Below are positions 10,382 through 17,829 of a DNA stretch of 64,000 nt, piece after piece. Location: NCBI GenBank assembly GCA_028684065.1, contig JAQUGO010000006.1, positions 1-64,000 of the forward strand, in the 5' to 3' direction. Below the pieces are notes generated by a model. The model did not search any database. It had not been told where the DNA came from and was given only the letters and a program-made list of their open reading frames with translations. Position 1 is the stretch's first letter. The number at the start of each line of letters is the position of its first letter. Source of the stretch: Sulfurospirillaceae bacterium. Lineage in GTDB: Bacteria > Campylobacterota > Campylobacteria > Campylobacterales > Sulfurospirillaceae. The position numbers and the translations under genes are program-made.

Positions 10382-11016
10382 TAGATATCAAAAATGCTAC
10401 CAAAAAATTTGGTTCAACCCTCTCTTTGGATGATGTTTCGTTGACCTTCAATACGAATGATTATGTAGCTCTTATGGGTCCCAATGGGGCAGGAAAAACG
10501 ACCCTTATTCGTTTAATTCTTGGTTATTATCATCCTACCAATGGCGAAGTGCTTATCTATGGTATGAACGCTATTAAACACCGTTTAAAGGTATTAGAAC
10601 ATATTAGTTTTGTTCCACAGCTTCCACCTCCTATTAAGCTCAGTTTGGATGAACTGATGAGTTATGTGTGCGCGAGTGCCCACATTAAACGAGAAGAGAT
10701 TGTGCACTTTGCGAAAGAAATGGAGCTTGATTTGGAACCTAATTTAAGTAAATCATTTTTTAAACTCAGTGGTGGTATGAAGCAAAAAATGCTGATTGCC
10801 ATTAGCTTGGCTAAAAAGAGTGAAATTATTATTTATGATGAACCAACAGCCAATTTAGACCCAAAAGCACGAGATAACTTTTATCGATTGCTAAAACAAA
10901 ATGAGAATGGTAAAATTTCTCTTTTTGTAACGCACCGATTGGATGAAATCAAAGAGATTGTAAATAGACAAATCTTTATGGATTTAGGTAAAGTAGTGAG
11001 TGATGAAAAAATATAG
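10378..11016 (+). CDS. nosF: NosF, ABC transporter ATPase
   Basis: 212 residues. Walker A GPNGAGKT (34-41), Q-loop in FVPQLPPP, signature LSGGMKQK, Walker B IIIYDEPTA and the H-loop in FVTHRLDE are all intact. It pairs with NosY, whose gene here is displaced about 4 kb downstream by inserted genes. NosDFY is believed to supply sulfur and copper for CuZ assembly. The 3' end overlaps the next gene by 14 bases. Confidence 0.93.
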   Translation: MIDIKNATKKFGSTLSLDDVSLTFNTNDYVALMGPNGAGKTTLIRLILGYYHPTNGEVLIYGMNAIKHRLKVLEHISFVPQLPPPIKLSLDELMSYVCASAHIKREEIVHFAKEMELDLEPNLSKSFFKLSGGMKQKMLIAISLAKKSEIIIYDEPTANLDPKARDNFYRLLKQNENGKISLFVTHRLDEIKEIVNRQIFMDLGKVVSDEKI

Positions 11017-11443
11017 TTTTTTATTGTTTATAATGGCTTTTTTCTTTATCGGATGTGATACTAAAATAGACCATAATCCCCAAAAAATACATTGGGATCG
11101 CGACATGTGTGAACGATGTAAAATGGTTCTCAGTGATCGGAAATTTTCAGCGCAAGTCGTTAACCCTGAAAATGGTCGAAAATATACTTTTGACGATATT
11201 GGATGTGTTGTTTTATGGTTTAGAGACGATAAAATTGCATGGAGCGATAAAGCTATTATCTGGGTCAATGATGTGCATACAGGTGAATGGATTGATGCGC
11301 GAAGTGCGTGGTATGATGTGGAAAACATAACGCCTATGGCATATGGTTTTGGAGCACATAAAAGCAAAGAAGCGTTACATGCAGAAGATGAAGTAGTGGA
11401 TTTTGCTGAAATGTCACGCAGGATTATTAAAATAGGAAAATGA
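11003..11443 (+). CDS. NosL-like copper-binding lipoprotein (first copy)
   Basis: 146 residues from the ATG at 11003 (a GTG at 11000 is also possible), with a lipobox-type FFIGCD (Cys18). The motif C36-x2-C39-x-M41 (MCERCKM) is that of NosL Cu(I) chaperones. It is followed by FDDIGC and later PMAYGFGAH, both also present in the second copy at 14558. Likely a membrane-tethered copper carrier for NosZ maturation. Gene overlap with nosF implies coupled translation. Confidence 0.85.
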   Translation: MKKYSFLLFIMAFFFIGCDTKIDHNPQKIHWDRDMCERCKMVLSDRKFSAQVVNPENGRKYTFDDIGCVVLWFRDDKIAWSDKAIIWVNDVHTGEWIDARSAWYDVENITPMAYGFGAHKSKEALHAEDEVVDFAEMSRRIIKIGK

Positions 11444-11760
11444 TGTATAAAAGTAGGGTTCTTCTTTTTTTGGGATTGGGTATTGTGTTATTGAGCTTAT
11501 TTCAGTGGAGCTATTTTAAAACACATTCTTCATTAAATACGCATACTTTAGCGCAGAAAAATGCCTTTGTTTCCCTTATAGGTTTACCTGATTTAGCCTT
11601 GGTGACAGAAGCCCATTATGTGAGACACCGAAGTTTGAGTGATGTTTTTTCTTTTTTTGCAGACTCGCCAGAATTGCTCGAATATTTTCCTTCAACCTTT
11701 GTTTACATGTATACTCCAAGTATCGTTAAAACGCCTTCAGAGGTTCTCCATGAAAAATAA
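11443..11760 (+). CDS. small single-helix membrane protein of the nos cluster, function unknown
   Basis: 105 residues (ATG at 11443; another ATG at 11440). One N-terminal transmembrane helix (about 6-22) is followed by a periplasmic tail of about 80 residues without cysteine or recognisable motif (LIGLPDLALVTEAHYVRHRSLSDVF). I do not recognise a family. Its start abuts the NosL-like gene and its end overlaps the permease gene by 11 bases. It was therefore probably acquired or evolved with this transporter, perhaps as an accessory subunit. Confidence 0.7.
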   Translation: MYKSRVLLFLGLGIVLLSLFQWSYFKTHSSLNTHTLAQKNAFVSLIGLPDLALVTEAHYVRHRSLSDVFSFFADSPELLEYFPSTFVYMYTPSIVKTPSEVLHEK

Positions 11761-12937
11761 AATCAATTTATTTTTAGTAGAGTACGCTATTAATGCTCTT
11801 GTGCGAAGGGGTGGAAAACATTTTTTTATTGGTTTTATTTTTACGTTTTTAATTTTTTTACTCTCTTCAACACTCTTTATCAGTGATGCTATCAAACTAG
11901 AGCTAGGAAGTGCATTGCACGCTTTACCGGAAATTACTCTACAACGTTTTGTTGCGGGTAAACAAAGTGATGTTCCTATCCAACGTGTCGATGCTCTTTT
12001 GGATATTGAAGGTGTTAAAAGTGCTATTCCTCGTGTGTGGGGATATTACTATTTTAAGCCAGCAGGCGTCAACTTTTCAGTCATTGGCATGGATGCCTTT
12101 AGTCGTCAATATACCCAAACATTGCAAACCATCGTTGATGGTATAGATATGAAAGCCTTGGAAAAAGAGAATGGTATGATCGTTGGTGAAGGGGTGAAAA
12201 AAATATTGGGAGCCAACTACTATCAAGACTTTTTTAATTTTGTGACCAGTGATGGGCAGTGGAAAAAAGTCTTTATTGCCGGTACGTTTAATGCCTCTAT
12301 TTCGCTTGAAGCCAACGATATGATTCTTTTACCTAAAAAAATAGCCTATGAGATTTTTGGGATGGACACAACAAGGGCTACCGATATTGTTGTGAGTGTT
12401 TCAAATCCTAAAGAAATTTCGATGGTTGTGAATAAAATCAATCTGCTTTATCCAGATATGCGTACAATTACTAAAGATGATATTCGTGTAAGTTACCAGA
12501 ATATTTTTGATTATAAAAGTGGTTTTTTCCTAAGCCTTTTTATGGTGTGTGCTTTTACATTTTTTATCATTGTTTACGATAAGCTCAGTGGCCTTAGTTC
12601 TGAAGAAAAAAAAGAGATAGGCATCTTAAAGGCTGTAGGTTGGAGTATGGACGATATCATTAAAGAAAAATTTTATGAAAGTTTCATCCTCTCTTTAGGT
12701 GCTTTTATGTTAGGAATATGCTTTTCACTTTTCTTTGTTTATGGTTTACAAGCACCGCTATTGCGCGATATCTTTATGGGCTATTCAAATCTCAAGCCTT
12801 CTTTTAATCTTCCTTTTAGTGTGGATGGTGGAATGTTGTGCCTTCTTTTTTTATTGAGTGTACCTATTTACATTGGGGCAACCTTGATCCCGACGTGGAG
12901 AGCATCTATCTTAGATGCTGATGAGGTGATGCGATGA
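11750..12937 (+). CDS. FtsX/MacB-type ABC permease
   Basis: 395 residues from the ATG at 11750. Topology is one N-terminal helix (about 24-44), a periplasmic domain of about 220 residues, then three helices (about 260-280, 310-335, 360-380): the MacB/LolC/FtsX layout. The cytoplasmic EEKKEIGILKAVGWSMDDI motif between helices is the coupling signature of that family. It works with the ATPase at 12934. In MacB-like systems such permeases extrude or move substrates in the periplasm; a copper or lipoprotein cargo is only inferred from the NosL neighbours. Confidence 0.88.
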   Translation: MKNKINLFLVEYAINALVRRGGKHFFIGFIFTFLIFLLSSTLFISDAIKLELGSALHALPEITLQRFVAGKQSDVPIQRVDALLDIEGVKSAIPRVWGYYYFKPAGVNFSVIGMDAFSRQYTQTLQTIVDGIDMKALEKENGMIVGEGVKKILGANYYQDFFNFVTSDGQWKKVFIAGTFNASISLEANDMILLPKKIAYEIFGMDTTRATDIVVSVSNPKEISMVVNKINLLYPDMRTITKDDIRVSYQNIFDYKSGFFLSLFMVCAFTFFIIVYDKLSGLSSEEKKEIGILKAVGWSMDDIIKEKFYESFILSLGAFMLGICFSLFFVYGLQAPLLRDIFMGYSNLKPSFNLPFSVDGGMLCLLFLLSVPIYIGATLIPTWRASILDADEVMR

Positions 12938-13602
12938 TAATGCTTCGTGATATTCGAAAAGTTTACACCAGTGCCAGTGAAGAAGTGGTTGCGCTTAAGA
13001 ACATCTCTTTGCATGTCAAAGTTGGTGAGTTTTGTGTGCTTAAGGGTGCTAGTGGAAGTGGCAAAAGTACGGTTTTATCGCTTATTGCAGGCCTCAGTAA
13101 GCCAAGTAGCGGCGAGGTTATGGTTGATGGCAAACAGATTTCAAAATTGCCCGATACTTTTAGTGCACATTTTCGCCGCCGAAATATAGGTTTTATTTTT
13201 CAAAAATACCATTTGATTCCAACACTCAGTGTTAAAGACAATATTATCGTACCTTTAATTCCTGAGAATTTACCTTTGGCACAGATAGAACAACGTGTAC
13301 AAAACGTAATGGAAAAATTCTCCATTGCGCATAAAGCGACGAGCATGGTCAAATATCTCTCAGGTGGTGAACAACAACGTGTCGCTATTGCAAGAGCTTT
13401 AGTCAATCATCCTAAAATTATTTTAGCGGATGAACCAACAGCCAATTTAGATGCGACACTTTCGATGGAACTCATGACCATATTTGAAATGTTAAAGAAC
13501 GAAGGCGTGAGTATCATTGTGGCCACACATGACCCTCTTTTCTTTGATTTAGCCTGTGTCGATAGCATTAAAGAGATGAAAAACGGTGAGATAGTGTCAT
13601 GA
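12934..13602 (+). CDS. LolD/MacB-type ABC ATPase
   Basis: 222 residues. Walker A GASGSGKS (38-45), Q-loop FIFQKYHLIP, signature LSGGEQQR, Walker B IILADEPTANLD and H-loop ATHDP are intact. The long LSGGEQQRVAIARAL stretch and FQKYHLIPTLSV are typical of the LolD/MacB/FtsE branch, distinct from NosF. It overlaps the permease before it and the membrane protein after it by 4 bases each. Confidence 0.92.
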   Translation: MIMLRDIRKVYTSASEEVVALKNISLHVKVGEFCVLKGASGSGKSTVLSLIAGLSKPSSGEVMVDGKQISKLPDTFSAHFRRRNIGFIFQKYHLIPTLSVKDNIIVPLIPENLPLAQIEQRVQNVMEKFSIAHKATSMVKYLSGGEQQRVAIARALVNHPKIILADEPTANLDATLSMELMTIFEMLKNEGVSIIVATHDPLFFDLACVDSIKEMKNGEIVS

Positions 13603-14561
13603 CTTTAACCCCTGAGATTATTGCTCTATTAATGCTTGATGCGCTTTTTTTATTTTTTTCTCTCATTGCTTTAGTGCTCAGTGTGCGCATTTTTTTAAAA
13701 TGGGATATGCACTCAACCCATGCGTTGCAATACAGCCTTGAAAAACAAAGTTATCTTGTTTCTGTAGTTATTAAATACATCTTTACCCTTAAAATTCCAC
13801 TCTTTTTATTTTTTATCTTTACATGTAATAAACTGTCCAACATTATTACCGGGGCTATGTGTGCCGCTGGTGTTGTCAATTCCGTTGATTTTGGGCTTTA
13901 TTTGACTGTATTTAAAATCATCAATCTTTATTTTTTTGGTTTTTGGCTTTTACTTAATCGCGCAGATATGAAAGAAGAAAAACTTCCTTTTACGAAGTTA
14001 AAATTTTTGTTATTTATCCTTTTCTTTGTGCCATTATTGGCTGAAATCGTGTTGGAAATTTCATTTTTTTCCTCGTTAAATATCAGTAAAATTGTGAGTT
14101 GCTGCGGAACGCTCTTTTCGGCGGCAAGTACCTCTTATCTCTCCTTACTTTTTAAAGTTGATAAAACATTGGTCGTAGGTATTTTTTACTTTTTTGCCTT
14201 TTTGATAGGGATTGCCTATTTTTTGAAAAATAGTGTGGTTTTTATATTTGCCAATGGGATGTTCGTTATATTCGCCATTGTCTCTTTAATCGTTTTTTTT
14301 AGCACCTATGTGTATGAACTTCCGACGCATAATTGCCCCTTCTGCTTACTTCAAAAAGAGTATTATGGTGTGGGATACGTGATGTATGTTACGCTTTATA
14401 TTGGCACTTTTTTTGGTATAGGAGGGACTATTTTAAATGGTTTGCTTCGAAGTGACGATAGACTTTTTTTGAAAATTTCATTGCTATTTGATACGCTTTA
14501 TGTGCTTATCGTTTCAGCGTACCCTCTGTCTTACTATCTTAAAAATGGAGTTTGGTTGTGA
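13599..14561 (+). CDS. cysteine-containing polytopic membrane protein, function unknown
   Basis: 320 residues, with about eight hydrophobic helices (for example about 8-28, 58-76, 98-118, 132-152, 192-212, 216-238, 262-282, 293-312). Cysteines occur at 76, 88, an adjacent pair C168-C169, and a CxxC at 246-249 (NCPFCLLQ). Paired thiols could bind copper or carry disulfide redox chemistry, as in VKOR/DsbB-like proteins, but no family is recognised. Its ends are translationally coupled to the ATPase before and the NosL-like gene after (GTGA). Confidence 0.75.
   Translation: MTLTPEIIALLMLDALFLFFSLIALVLSVRIFLKWDMHSTHALQYSLEKQSYLVSVVIKYIFTLKIPLFLFFIFTCNKLSNIITGAMCAAGVVNSVDFGLYLTVFKIINLYFFGFWLLLNRADMKEEKLPFTKLKFLLFILFFVPLLAEIVLEISFFSSLNISKIVSCCGTLFSAASTSYLSLLFKVDKTLVVGIFYFFAFLIGIAYFLKNSVVFIFANGMFVIFAIVSLIVFFSTYVYELPTHNCPFCLLQKEYYGVGYVMYVTLYIGTFFGIGGTILNGLLRSDDRLFLKISLLFDTLYVLIVSAYPLSYYLKNGVWL
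13819..13828. repeat. TTACATGTAA palindrome (in membrane protein gene)
   Basis: Exact copy inside the gene at 13599, read in a frame giving Thr-Cys-Asn, not Leu-His-Val. Confidence 0.7.
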
Positions 14562-15064
14562 AAAAAACGTTCTCAACAGCTATTTTAATAGGCTTTCCAC
14601 TGGTGGTTCTTATCACGCTTGGATGGTATTTAGCCCATCGTAACCAATCACCTACAGATATCATTAATCAAGAGCAAAAACCTCTCACCTATAAAGACAA
14701 TACGGTGCAATGCCCGCAGTGTCACATGTACTTAGTCGGTATGGTGCATACGGCTCAAATTATTAGTAAAGAAGGACAAACGCATTTTTTTGATGATATT
14801 GGTTGTGCCATTTTATGGAGCAAAGAACACCATATCGACGTAGCGAACGTCGTTTTCTGGGTTTACACGGTAGATACTAAACGGTGGATTAAAGCTAAAG
14901 AGGCTCACTATTCATTAAATGATGAAACCCCTATGAAGTATGGATTTGGAGCCTATGAACAAGAAAAAGAAGGAATGATAGCCTTTGAAGAGATGCGCCT
15001 TCGCATGTTAAGAGGCGAAAATATGAGTGACCCCAAAGTACGAAAAAAATTATTAGGAAAATAA
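14558..15064 (+). CDS. NosL-like copper-binding protein (second copy)
   Basis: 168 residues from the GTG at 14558; GGAG lies 7 bases upstream and the GTG overlaps the previous stop (GTGA). A TTG at 14552 is the longer option. An N-terminal helix (about 7-25) without a lipobox anchors a domain with C52-x2-C55-x-M57 (CPQCHM). FDDIGC and PMKYGFGAY follow, the same landmarks as the copy at 11003. The two are paralogues flanking the inserted ABC transporter, one lipid-anchored and one helix-anchored. Likely a periplasmic Cu(I) relay. Confidence 0.85.
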   Translation: MKKTFSTAILIGFPLVVLITLGWYLAHRNQSPTDIINQEQKPLTYKDNTVQCPQCHMYLVGMVHTAQIISKEGQTHFFDDIGCAILWSKEHHIDVANVVFWVYTVDTKRWIKAKEAHYSLNDETPMKYGFGAYEQEKEGMIAFEEMRLRMLRGENMSDPKVRKKLLGK

Positions 15065-15065
15065 G

Positions 15066-15893
15066 ATGCAAAATGTAATGTTAATTGCCTATTTAGATAT
15101 TAAAGAGTCTATACGGGCAAAATGGTTTTTAGTGTATTCATTTGTTTTTGGTGGACTTATCGCACTGTTTTTTATAGCTGGTGTTACTGAATCGCAGGTG
15201 ATGGGGTTTAGTGGACTTAGTCGTTTATTGTTGATGTATATTCAAGTGACGATTGTCATCTTACCTATTTTTATTTTGATTACAACAGTACGTTCTATCT
15301 CTGGCGATAGGGATACTCATATTTTAGAGTACATGCTCTCTTTTCCTATCTCCCTTGCACAATATTATTGGGGGAAAATTATTGGGCGCTTTGCGACGGT
15401 TTTTTTACCCGTTTTTTTGGCAATGGTGATTGCTCTCATTGTTGGTTTTATGAAAGGTGCATCGATTCCGTGGAGTATTTTTTTACTCTATACGGGTCTT
15501 TTATTTTCATTGAGTTCAGTTTTTTTAGGAATTGCTTTTTTTATCTCGTCAATTGTCAAATCCTCTGAAGTTGCGTTGGGTCTATCTTTCTTTGTATGGA
15601 TATTTTTATTGGCATTTTTGGACATTGCTTTGATTAGTTTAATGATGCAGCATAGAGTTTCAGAAGAGTTAATTATCTTAGCTTCATTACTGAATCCAAT
15701 GGAAATTTTTAGGGTTGCCGCTATTAGTCTTTTTGACCCTGAATTAACCGTTATGGGCCCAGTTGCTTTTTATATTTTGGATTCTATTAAGCATACAACT
15801 TTTGTTCTTTTTTCGATTGGGTATCCTATCCTTTTAGGTTTGGGATTTGCGTTTTTTGGTTTTAGCATTTTTAAAAAAACAGATTTGGTTTAG
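15066..15893 (+). CDS. nosY: NosY, ABC transporter permease for CuZ maturation
   Basis: 275 residues with six predicted helices (about 18-38, 55-75, 100-122, 130-155, 165-187, 248-268), of the ABC-2/NosY type. DRDTHILEYMLSFPIS is the cytoplasmic segment conserved in NosY-like permeases. It would pair with NosF, whose gene lies 4 kb upstream. It begins 1 base after the second NosL-like gene. Confidence 0.9.
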   Translation: MQNVMLIAYLDIKESIRAKWFLVYSFVFGGLIALFFIAGVTESQVMGFSGLSRLLLMYIQVTIVILPIFILITTVRSISGDRDTHILEYMLSFPISLAQYYWGKIIGRFATVFLPVFLAMVIALIVGFMKGASIPWSIFLLYTGLLFSLSSVFLGIAFFISSIVKSSEVALGLSFFVWIFLLAFLDIALISLMMQHRVSEELIILASLLNPMEIFRVAAISLFDPELTVMGPVAFYILDSIKHTTFVLFSIGYPILLGLGFAFFGFSIFKKTDLV

Positions 15894-15902
15894 GAGAAAG
15901 AG

Positions 15903-16370
15903 ATGAAAAAATTATTACTGATAGTTTTGTGCGTGGCGACTTTATTTGGCGCCCATATGGAAATTAGCAAAGATGCAACCTGCTTAATACGCAAAATTAA
16001 GCTCTATACAGCGCCTGAATGGGCAGCCAGCATACAAGTACGGAGTGGAAAAATAGCCTATTTCTCAAGCCCAAAATCAATGTTTGAGTTTTATTTTCAG
16101 CCTGGAAAATGGCCTGAATATAATGTCAAAAGCGAAGATGATATGAGAATACATGTAACAAATTTTAATACTTTAGAAAAAATACCCGCTAAACAAGCTT
16201 TTTTTGTCTATGGTTCGAGTAAGATAAGTCCCGCAGGAGATGATTTACCTGCATTTTCAACCAAACAAGAGGCCGAAGCTTTTTTAAAAAAATATAACGG
16301 TTCACGTGTGATGGACTTTTCGCAAGTTTCAGATGGCTTGATTAACCTTTTGAATGGACGAACACGTTAG
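15903..16370 (+). CDS. nosL: NosL family protein lacking the CxxCxM motif
   Basis: 155 residues with a Sec signal (about 1-17, LFGAH). It sits directly after nosY, the position of nosL in Wolinella-type clusters. The body matches NosL in outline (KIAYFSSPKSMFEFYF, PAKQAFFVYGS, FSTKQEAEAFLKKYNG). However, only one cysteine (DATCLIRKI) remains where the other two copies have C-x2-C-x-M. It may bind copper differently, act as a partner of the other NosL-like proteins, or be a fold relative with another role. AGGAGAAAGAG supplies the ribosome site. Confidence 0.8.
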   Translation: MKKLLLIVLCVATLFGAHMEISKDATCLIRKIKLYTAPEWAASIQVRSGKIAYFSSPKSMFEFYFQPGKWPEYNVKSEDDMRIHVTNFNTLEKIPAKQAFFVYGSSKISPAGDDLPAFSTKQEAEAFLKKYNGSRVMDFSQVSDGLINLLNGRTR

Positions 16371-16387: not shown

Positions 16388-17206
16388 ATGAAAGTAGCCA
16401 TGAGTGGCGCAAGTGGTTTTGTAGCAAATGCTTTAAAAAAAGCATTCCCTGAGTGGATAGCCATTGACCGTACGGATAGCGTTGAGGCAATAGTTGTAAA
16501 ACTTCAAGGTGTGGATGCTGTTTTTAATCTAGCAGGTGCTCCTATCGCCGCACGTTGGGATGAAGCGTACAAAAAAGTGTTACTTTCCAGTCGTATTGAT
16601 ACGACCAAAAAACTTGTAGCGGCCATTAATCAAAGTGATGTGAAACATTTTATTTCAACTTCTGCGGTAGGTATTTATCCCAATAATATACCATGCGATG
16701 AAGAAAGTGAAAAAATGGGTGATGACTTTTTAGCAGGGCTTGCCTTAGCATGGGAAAGTGAAGCCCGAAAATGCCAAAAGCCCACAACGATACTACGATT
16801 TGGTGTCGTACTGGGTAAAGATGGTGGGGCACTTGAAAAAATGGTTCCAGCCATTCAAGCTTACATGGGAGGGACCATTGGTAATGGTATGATGATAACC
16901 AGTTGGATTGACATCGATGATTTGGTGCGTATCTATCAGTTTGTTTTAGACAATAATACTGTAGGTACCTTTAATGCAACGGCTCCAAATCCTGTGAGCA
17001 ATTTTACGTTTACCAAAATATTGGGCAAAATACTCAAGCGCCCGACATGGTTGCCTTTACCTCCTTTTATCATAAAAATGCTCTTTTCAGAAGGAGCAAC
17101 AGTCCTTTTAGATAGCAAAGAAGTTTATCCTAAAGCGCTTGTCAAAAAAGGGTTTAGTTTTAAATATCCTGATTTAGAGGGTTCTTTACGTAAAATTCTC
17201 GCTTAG
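16388..17206 (+). CDS. NAD(P)-binding epimerase, TIGR01777/YfcH-like
   Basis: 272 residues. The N-terminal GASGFVANAL is a Rossmann dinucleotide-binding turn, followed by FNLAGAPIAARWDEAYK and the SRIDTTKKLVAAI segment typical of the TIGR01777 branch of extended short-chain dehydrogenases. The C-terminal region contains the usual DUF1731-like tail (VKKGFSFKYPDLEGSLRKIL). Substrate is unknown for the family. It follows nosL by 17 bases with AAAGGA before the start, so it may be read from the nos transcript. Its stop overlaps the convergent transporter gene. Confidence 0.85.
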   Translation: MKVAMSGASGFVANALKKAFPEWIAIDRTDSVEAIVVKLQGVDAVFNLAGAPIAARWDEAYKKVLLSSRIDTTKKLVAAINQSDVKHFISTSAVGIYPNNIPCDEESEKMGDDFLAGLALAWESEARKCQKPTTILRFGVVLGKDGGALEKMVPAIQAYMGGTIGNGMMITSWIDIDDLVRIYQFVLDNNTVGTFNATAPNPVSNFTFTKILGKILKRPTWLPLPPFIIKMLFSEGATVLLDSKEVYPKALVKKGFSFKYPDLEGSLRKILA

Positions 17207-17829
17207 TGTTTTTCTAAAAAAAGACGAATGCCAAGGGCGATCATTACGATGCCAGAGATGGCATCAAGGCTTTGGCGTACGCTTCGTTTCGTGATAAACC
17301 CATTGGCTGAAACAATGGTATAGACTAAAATACCTTGCCAAATAGTACCAATGATAAAATGAAGGAAGGCTAGAAAGAGTGATTGCGCCAAAACAGAGCT
17401 TTCGTGTGAGATGAATTGTGGTAAAAAAGCCATATAAAAAATAACTGCTTTGGGATTAAGTACATTGGATAAAAAGCCTTCTCGAAGAGAAGTCCAAAAT
17501 AAAAATGGTTTTTGAACAACAACTTTTTGATGCATCTTTTTAGCGTTCCAAAATGATTTAAGTGAACCAAATCCTAACCATAAAAGATACAGCGCTCCTA
17601 TACTTTTTAAAATTATAAAAGCCGTTGCTGAGTAGAGTAAAATGGCAGAAATACCCACGGCAGAGAGCGTTGCATGTACAAAAAGTCCCGAGCAAATGCC
17701 TAAACTTGAAACTAAGCCATCTTTAACGCCACCTCTTAATGTATTGCGCATGACAATCATTGTATCAGCTCCTGGTGTCATCGTGAGTAGTGTAATGGCA
17801 ATCAAAAAAGTAAATAAATCTAATGGCAT
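17203..17829 (-). CDS. LysE/RhtB family amino-acid exporter
   Basis: 208 residues and six predicted helices. The N-terminal LTMTPGADTMIVMRNTLRGG and the later LREGFLSNVLNPKAVIFYMAF are the LysE/RhtB family landmarks. Members export amino acids such as homoserine, threonine or lysine; the substrate cannot be read here. It converges on the epimerase gene with overlapping stop codons, so no room exists for a terminator between them. Confidence 0.92.
   Translation of the reverse strand: MPLDLFTFLIAITLLTMTPGADTMIVMRNTLRGGVKDGLVSSLGICSGLFVHATLSAVGISAILLYSATAFIILKSIGALYLLWLGFGSLKSFWNAKKMHQKVVVQKPFLFWTSLREGFLSNVLNPKAVIFYMAFLPQFISHESSVLAQSLFLAFLHFIIGTIWQGILVYTIVSANGFITKRSVRQSLDAISGIVMIALGIRLFLEKH

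Follow-up and report, generated by a model that had tools for sequence, protein, structure and literature searches.

The window analysed here, a 64,000-nucleotide stretch of a Sulfurospirillaceae bacterium (positions 1 to 64,000 of contig JAQUGO010000006.1, assembly GCA_028684065.1), contains a nos (nitrous oxide reduction) gene cluster into which an extra unit of five genes, S-P-A-M-L2 (positions 11440-15064; hereafter the cassette), is inserted. We consider it moderately probable that this cassette is a self-contained mechanotransmission ATP-binding cassette (ABC) system of the LolCDE/MacB type, preparing NosL-type Cu(I) chaperones for respiratory enzymes. Since the same cassette recurs in the operons of a second copper enzyme, MccA, it is probably a general copper-handing machine for such enzymes and not a nitrous-oxide-specific part. 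The insertion as such is not new: in 2016, five open reading frames (ORFs) were reported at the same site, between 'nosL' (our L1) and nosY, of the Sulfurospirillum cavolei nos cluster (PMC4794192). The second and third were labelled ABC permease and ABC ATPase, the other three hypothetical, and the accessible part of that report gives no function, mcc link, standalone form or chaperone motif. In the open-access literature nothing beyond this report was found on the ABC genes of mcc, and an earlier mention in subscription papers on mcc is possible. The new result is the distribution of the cassette.

Between the end of nosF (11016) and the start of nosY (15066) six same-strand ORFs lie head to tail, nearly every junction overlapping (Table 1; improved start codons were chosen for P at 11750 and, as GTG, for L2 at 14558). 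The initial annotation had taken all six as one coupled unit interrupting a Wolinella-type order nosF-nosY-nosL. The overlaps stand, but that order is incomplete, as the genome of Wolinella succinogenes has nosF-L1-nosY-nosL-L2-like, and L1 is located between nosF and nosY also in other clusters without the cassette; L1 is thus an ordinary nos gene outside the insertion. The limits of the five-gene unit follow from near-identical second copies in two genomes, which span S-P-A-M-L2, beginning inside the first ~30 bp of S and ending where nosY starts: the nos and standalone copies are 99.1% identical over 3611 bp in G248 and 95.9% identical over 3605 bp in G206. As to the gene products, the FtsX/MacB-type permease (P), the LolD-type ATPase (A) and the Cys-rich polytopic protein (M) proposed initially were all borne out, and of the two supposed CxxCxM paralogues of the NosL kind one (L1) qualifies as NosL by its Pfam score, whereas the other (L2) scores too low, yet shares the CxxCxM motif with it.

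Table 1. Genes from L1 to the downstream flank of the nos cluster in the window
Gene	Positions	Strand	Product	Remark
L1	11003..11443	+	NosL-family lipoprotein, CxxCxM (MCERCKM)	core nos gene adjoining the cassette, outside it
S	11440..11760	+	small protein, single N-terminal transmembrane helix	cassette gene 1; transmembrane sketch
P	11750..12937	+	LolCE/MacB-type (type VII ABC) permease, 4 transmembrane helices + periplasmic core domain	
A	12934..13602	+	LolD/FtsE/MacB-type ATPase	ABC_tran 1e-38
M	13599..14561	+	protein with 8 transmembrane helices, without known family	
L2	14558..15064	+	N-terminally anchored NosL-like protein, CxxCxM (QCPQCHM)	last cassette gene
nosY	15066..15893	+	ABC-2 permease of NosDFY, downstream neighbour	Pfam ABC2_membrane_2 4.7e-18
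terminal nosL	15903..16370	+	NosL fold without CxxCxM	NosL 65.8 bits
downstream flank	16388..17829		272-amino-acid epimerase-like (+), 208-amino-acid LysE-type (-)	in nine other Sulfurospirillum genomes, orthologues follow the standalone cassette

The arrangement of P, A and M is beyond chance, considering that their order is fixed in 110 of the 121 distinct loci with enough flank, that the genes of A and M overlap at 104 of 115 loci, and that 102 of 121 loci have a neighbour of the NosL type (98 of them one with CxxCxM). S, or its short mcc counterpart, was found in 72 of the 121 loci; the neighbourhood genes were called by a simple ORF picker, with which small genes such as S are undercounted. 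A scan for promoters and terminators gave results near the shuffle level and was not used.

The strongest association of the cassette is with the mcc operon. Among the 298 Campylobacteria genomes of our survey (all counts cover related genomes), M is present in 107, in 126 copies, MccA of the 4RKM type in 48, with an exact match to 4RKM in W. succinogenes, and nosZ, intact or interrupted, in 89. M lies within 25 kb of mccA in 47 of the 48 MccA genomes, and in the 48th (G182) mccA is found at a contig end. The gene order is mccA-B-C-D-ccsA-sel1-LL-S-P-A-M-L2, where LL is the gene of a two-domain putative chaperone. In the mcc operon of W. succinogenes, which encodes the haem c-copper sulfite reductase MccA, a paralogous LL-S-P-A-M block likewise stands downstream of ccsA, although its P, A and M are only ~30-47% identical to the window copy, its target is MccA and NosDFY is missing. 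Besides the cassette, no NosL-linked ABC system was seen in mcc. In the MccA genomes without nosZ, NosD is absent in 12 of 12 and NosY in all but one relic, so that the cassette may be the counterpart of NosDFY there. A gene block fixed in every MccA operon found is a direct candidate for the supply of copper to MccA. Two further mcc and W. succinogenes loci deserve mention. In G056 (L080/L053), mccA, mccB and the beginning of mccC are gone from the mcc operon, next to transposase-like genes, yet LL-S-P-A-M-L2 is intact; W. succinogenes has another P-A-M set, which is very divergent (L141:7122-9918, M 30% identical).

As for nosZ, the association is looser. Of the 126 copies of M, 47 lie near mccA and 16 no further than 25 kb from nosZ; the other 63 have neither enzyme within this distance, the standalone form being thus the commonest. 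Copies outside mcc occur together with nosZ in 39 genomes (odds ratio 3.9, p 2e-6, without correction for relatedness). The initial annotation had suggested a second ABC system loading copper chaperones for NosZ: an ABC system linked to copper chaperones is upheld by the NosL-domain neighbours and by the association with two different copper enzymes, NosZ and MccA, but a role specific to NosZ is not, as the counts below indicate and as the steadiest partner is MccA. That annotation had also named, as the finding that would speak against it, a module occurring mostly in genomes without copper enzymes; such a distribution was not observed, nosZ or MccA being present in 80 of the 107 M genomes. 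The best 80 genome matches all belong to Campylobacterota or to unclassified metagenome-assembled genomes, the genomes drawn at the level of the phylum representing a single order.

Several observations weigh against the proposed role. The cassette is not required for NosZ, because 50 of the 89 nosZ genomes have no copy outside mcc; 35 of the 74 genomes with such a copy have no nosZ, and both nosZ and MccA are missing from 27 M genomes. In the P+A+M tree the mcc copies fall into a single clade, which also takes in the nos-linked copy of G218; the mcc link thus represents essentially one ancient association with vertical or joint inheritance and not 48 independent events. Finally, c-type haem is common to MccA and to clade II NosZ of the present type, for which reason the association alone does not exclude haem.

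The chaperone side of the system is represented by several NosL-type proteins. L1 scores 26.1 bits against Pfam NosL (PF05573; cut-off 24) and belongs to this family; its N-terminus carries a lipobox-like FFIGC. The CXXCXM motif characterizes clade II NosL (PMC6530538); it is present in 31 of 31 relatives of the L1 type and in 0 of 27 relatives of the terminal nosL. L1, and not the terminal gene, is therefore the motif-bearing NosL here, and, judging by these motifs, the gene named nosL in Campylobacterota nos clusters is probably not the copper-binding NosL. L2, at 15.0 bits, falls under the same Pfam cut-off and is graded as NosL-like only, though it bears CxxCxM and can be aligned with L1 (C54, C57, M59 and C85 are common to both); it appears to be anchored by a transmembrane helix and not to be a lipoprotein. 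Elsewhere in the genome of the window, an isolated 377-amino-acid protein with two NosL domains is encoded on contig C11 (L060:7530-8663), and relatives of this protein usually accompany the standalone cassette on its upstream side. The same genome encodes a 608-amino-acid ORF (L061, C5) with a NosL domain, weak similarity to nosH and no CxxCxM. Near the standalone cassette a DsbD_2/SafE-type membrane protein was noted in 14 loci (L070:7487-8197, L095 and 12 others).

P has the four transmembrane helices, MacB-type periplasmic core and FtsX C-terminal domain of type VII ABC (LolCE/MacB/FtsX) permeases, which are motors working in the periplasm. It matches FtsX (4.5e-12) and MacB_PCD (0.0012) in Pfam, its profile finds LolC (7arh) at E 5.6e-6, and its AlphaFold2 model (predicted local distance difference test score, pLDDT, 86.5) was matched by Foldseek to LolE (E 1e-14), MacB (1.8e-13) and other type VII permeases, with the haem exporter HrtB ranked behind LolE and MacB; against the LolC/LolE equivalog TIGR02212 it scores 39.4 bits, far under the cut-off of 362. 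The PDB relatives of A are MacB, FtsE and LolD, and its Walker A and B motifs, LSGGEQQR and H-loop are conserved across 72 relatives. In permease fold and ATPase family the cassette thus resembles LolCDE, MacB and FtsEX, but it has a single permease gene and is linked to NosL proteins and M instead of LolA, MacA or TolC. This kinship admits a dedicated lipoprotein release, in which P and A would act like LolCDE and pull NosL-type lipoproteins from the inner membrane, copper being incidental: P and A are indeed closest to LolCE and LolD/MacB, and L1, with its lipobox, and many neighbours are exported NosL-type proteins. We regard it as rather unlikely, however, since L2 looks transmembrane-anchored, we saw no LolA partner among the cassette genes, and both the invariant Cys, His and Met residues of M and the concentration in copper-enzyme operons would be left unexplained.

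M found no family in Pfam or NCBIfam, no match of its profile to PDB sequences, no match in plasmids, and no significant fold match either in the PDB (best E 0.36) or among viral models; its AlphaFold2 model is confident (pLDDT 90.1). The invariant residues (51 alignment rows; 72 relatives) form three motifs, G-A-M-C (85-88, including M87-C88), C168-C169 and H244-x-C246-P-x-C249, situated in the loops that join helices 2 and 3, 4 and 5, and 6 and 7. From these positions in the model the motifs share one side of the membrane, predicted by the charge pattern to be periplasmic; the loop around C168-C169 is modelled with low confidence. Neither a significant PDB fold match nor a family match connects M with a known thiol-disulfide membrane enzyme of the DsbB/VKOR/CcdA type. 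M could nevertheless be a periplasmic thiol-disulfide enzyme, the system aiding the attachment of c-type haem or keeping CxxC reduced in MccA and haem-bearing NosZ. The invariant CC and CPxC pairs, the position of the mcc copy after CcsA, the c-type cytochrome genes nosC1/C2 in nos and HrtB among the fold matches of P agree with it. Campylobacteria are a class rich in c-type cytochromes, but just 107 of the 298 genomes have M, and the NosL-type neighbours found in 102 of 121 loci belong to a family known for copper; hence we hold this explanation, too, to be improbable.

Under the copper-chaperone reading, copper as the cargo is suggested by the NosL domains and the two copper enzymes, NosZ and MccA; the link to copper itself is well supported by genomics (47 of 48 MccA genomes and the 16 nos-linked copies, against 63 of 126 copies with neither enzyme within 25 kb), and we infer each mechanistic step and the assembly of the subunits. 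M would hold Cu(I), or keep the chaperone thiols reduced, at its periplasm-facing Cys/His/Met site. ATP could then be used by a P2A2 motor, whose periplasmic domain resembles that of LolC, to drive the handover to, or the release of, anchored CxxCxM chaperones, namely L2, LL with its two domains and, where the cassette lies in nos, also the lipoprotein L1. These might pass copper on, in nos to NosZ by way of NosDFY, and in mcc to MccA, where NosDFY plays no part. The NosDFY-NosL system, too, is encoded in the operon of a copper enzyme and unites an ABC ATPase, a permease and a NosL-type chaperone with CxxCxM, but the cassette permease is of the LolCE/MacB type and not an ABC-2 permease as NosY, NosD is missing and M is added. 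Hence the cassette is not a NosDFY system, for which an ABC-2 NosY and NosD within the unit would be expected; in the window NosD and NosY are separate genes, NosDFY and the cassette being both present, and the best-supported reading is that in nos the cassette is an addition to NosDFY. We advance tentatively, as somewhat less probable than not, the more specific proposal of a hitherto unassigned copper-insertion machine composed of a LolCE/MacB motor and of M as a membrane copper protein, whose fold was not found among solved structures, replacing NosDFY for MccA and supplementing it for NosZ. If true, it would be a second ABC design for periplasmic copper delivery, of relevance to bacteria that consume N2O and whose N2O reduction can be limited by the supply of copper.

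Other copper proteins were considered as partners. The cbb3 oxidase subunit CcoN is present in 26 of the 27 M genomes without nosZ and MccA; this carries little weight, because CcoN is near-universal (286 of 298), and cbb3 oxidase was set aside as uninformative. The copper-resistance oxidase CopA was rejected as it occurs in only 20 of 298 genomes and is mostly non-adjacent. For the same reason, and since the tight link is with MccA and not with resistance genes, it is doubtful that a standalone cassette serving copper homeostasis or export, i.e. removing or storing periplasmic copper, was recruited near copper enzymes, in spite of one Sulfurimonas copy adjoining the CopA oxidase and CopB and of the prevalence of the standalone form.

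As to the history of the cassette, the nos-linked copies occupy at least three separate positions in the P+A+M tree. They use three insertion sites in nos: between nosF and L1, between L1 and nosY, and downstream of nosL. No common group unites the nos-embedded copies of the window, G209, G248 and G206, and each of the G248 and G206 copies clusters with its own standalone copy or with a sister one; repeated exchange between cassette copies is the simplest reading. The epimerase-like and LysE-type genes downstream of the window cluster follow the standalone cassette in nine other Sulfurospirillum genomes, from which we conclude that this nos cluster occupies the chromosomal address of the standalone cassette; the upstream flank genes of that address are on a separate contig (C15) of the same genome. 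G146, having no nosZ, retains S-P-A-M-L2-nosY-nosL at the standalone address. Either nos may have joined the cassette there, or nos may have been lost around the cassette elsewhere. In the nos clusters of G272 and G229, remnants of the S start and the M end resemble a deletion scar, which is suggestive only, as a start/stop overlap with a ribosome site could also explain them. That the cassette is a recombining passenger block which landed in nos and has no role there would accord with the near-identical intragenomic copies, the scatter of the nos-embedded copies in the tree, the shared address and the many nos clusters without it, but the at least three independent nos associations with overlapping genes and the fixed mcc association make this very improbable. 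Among the nos loci themselves, nosZ of W. succinogenes (L140, G167:C1:869000-888500) is split in two around an inserted 396-amino-acid ORF, and at L090 (G209) and L146 (G235) nosZ is followed by nosB only, the remaining nos genes not being nearby.

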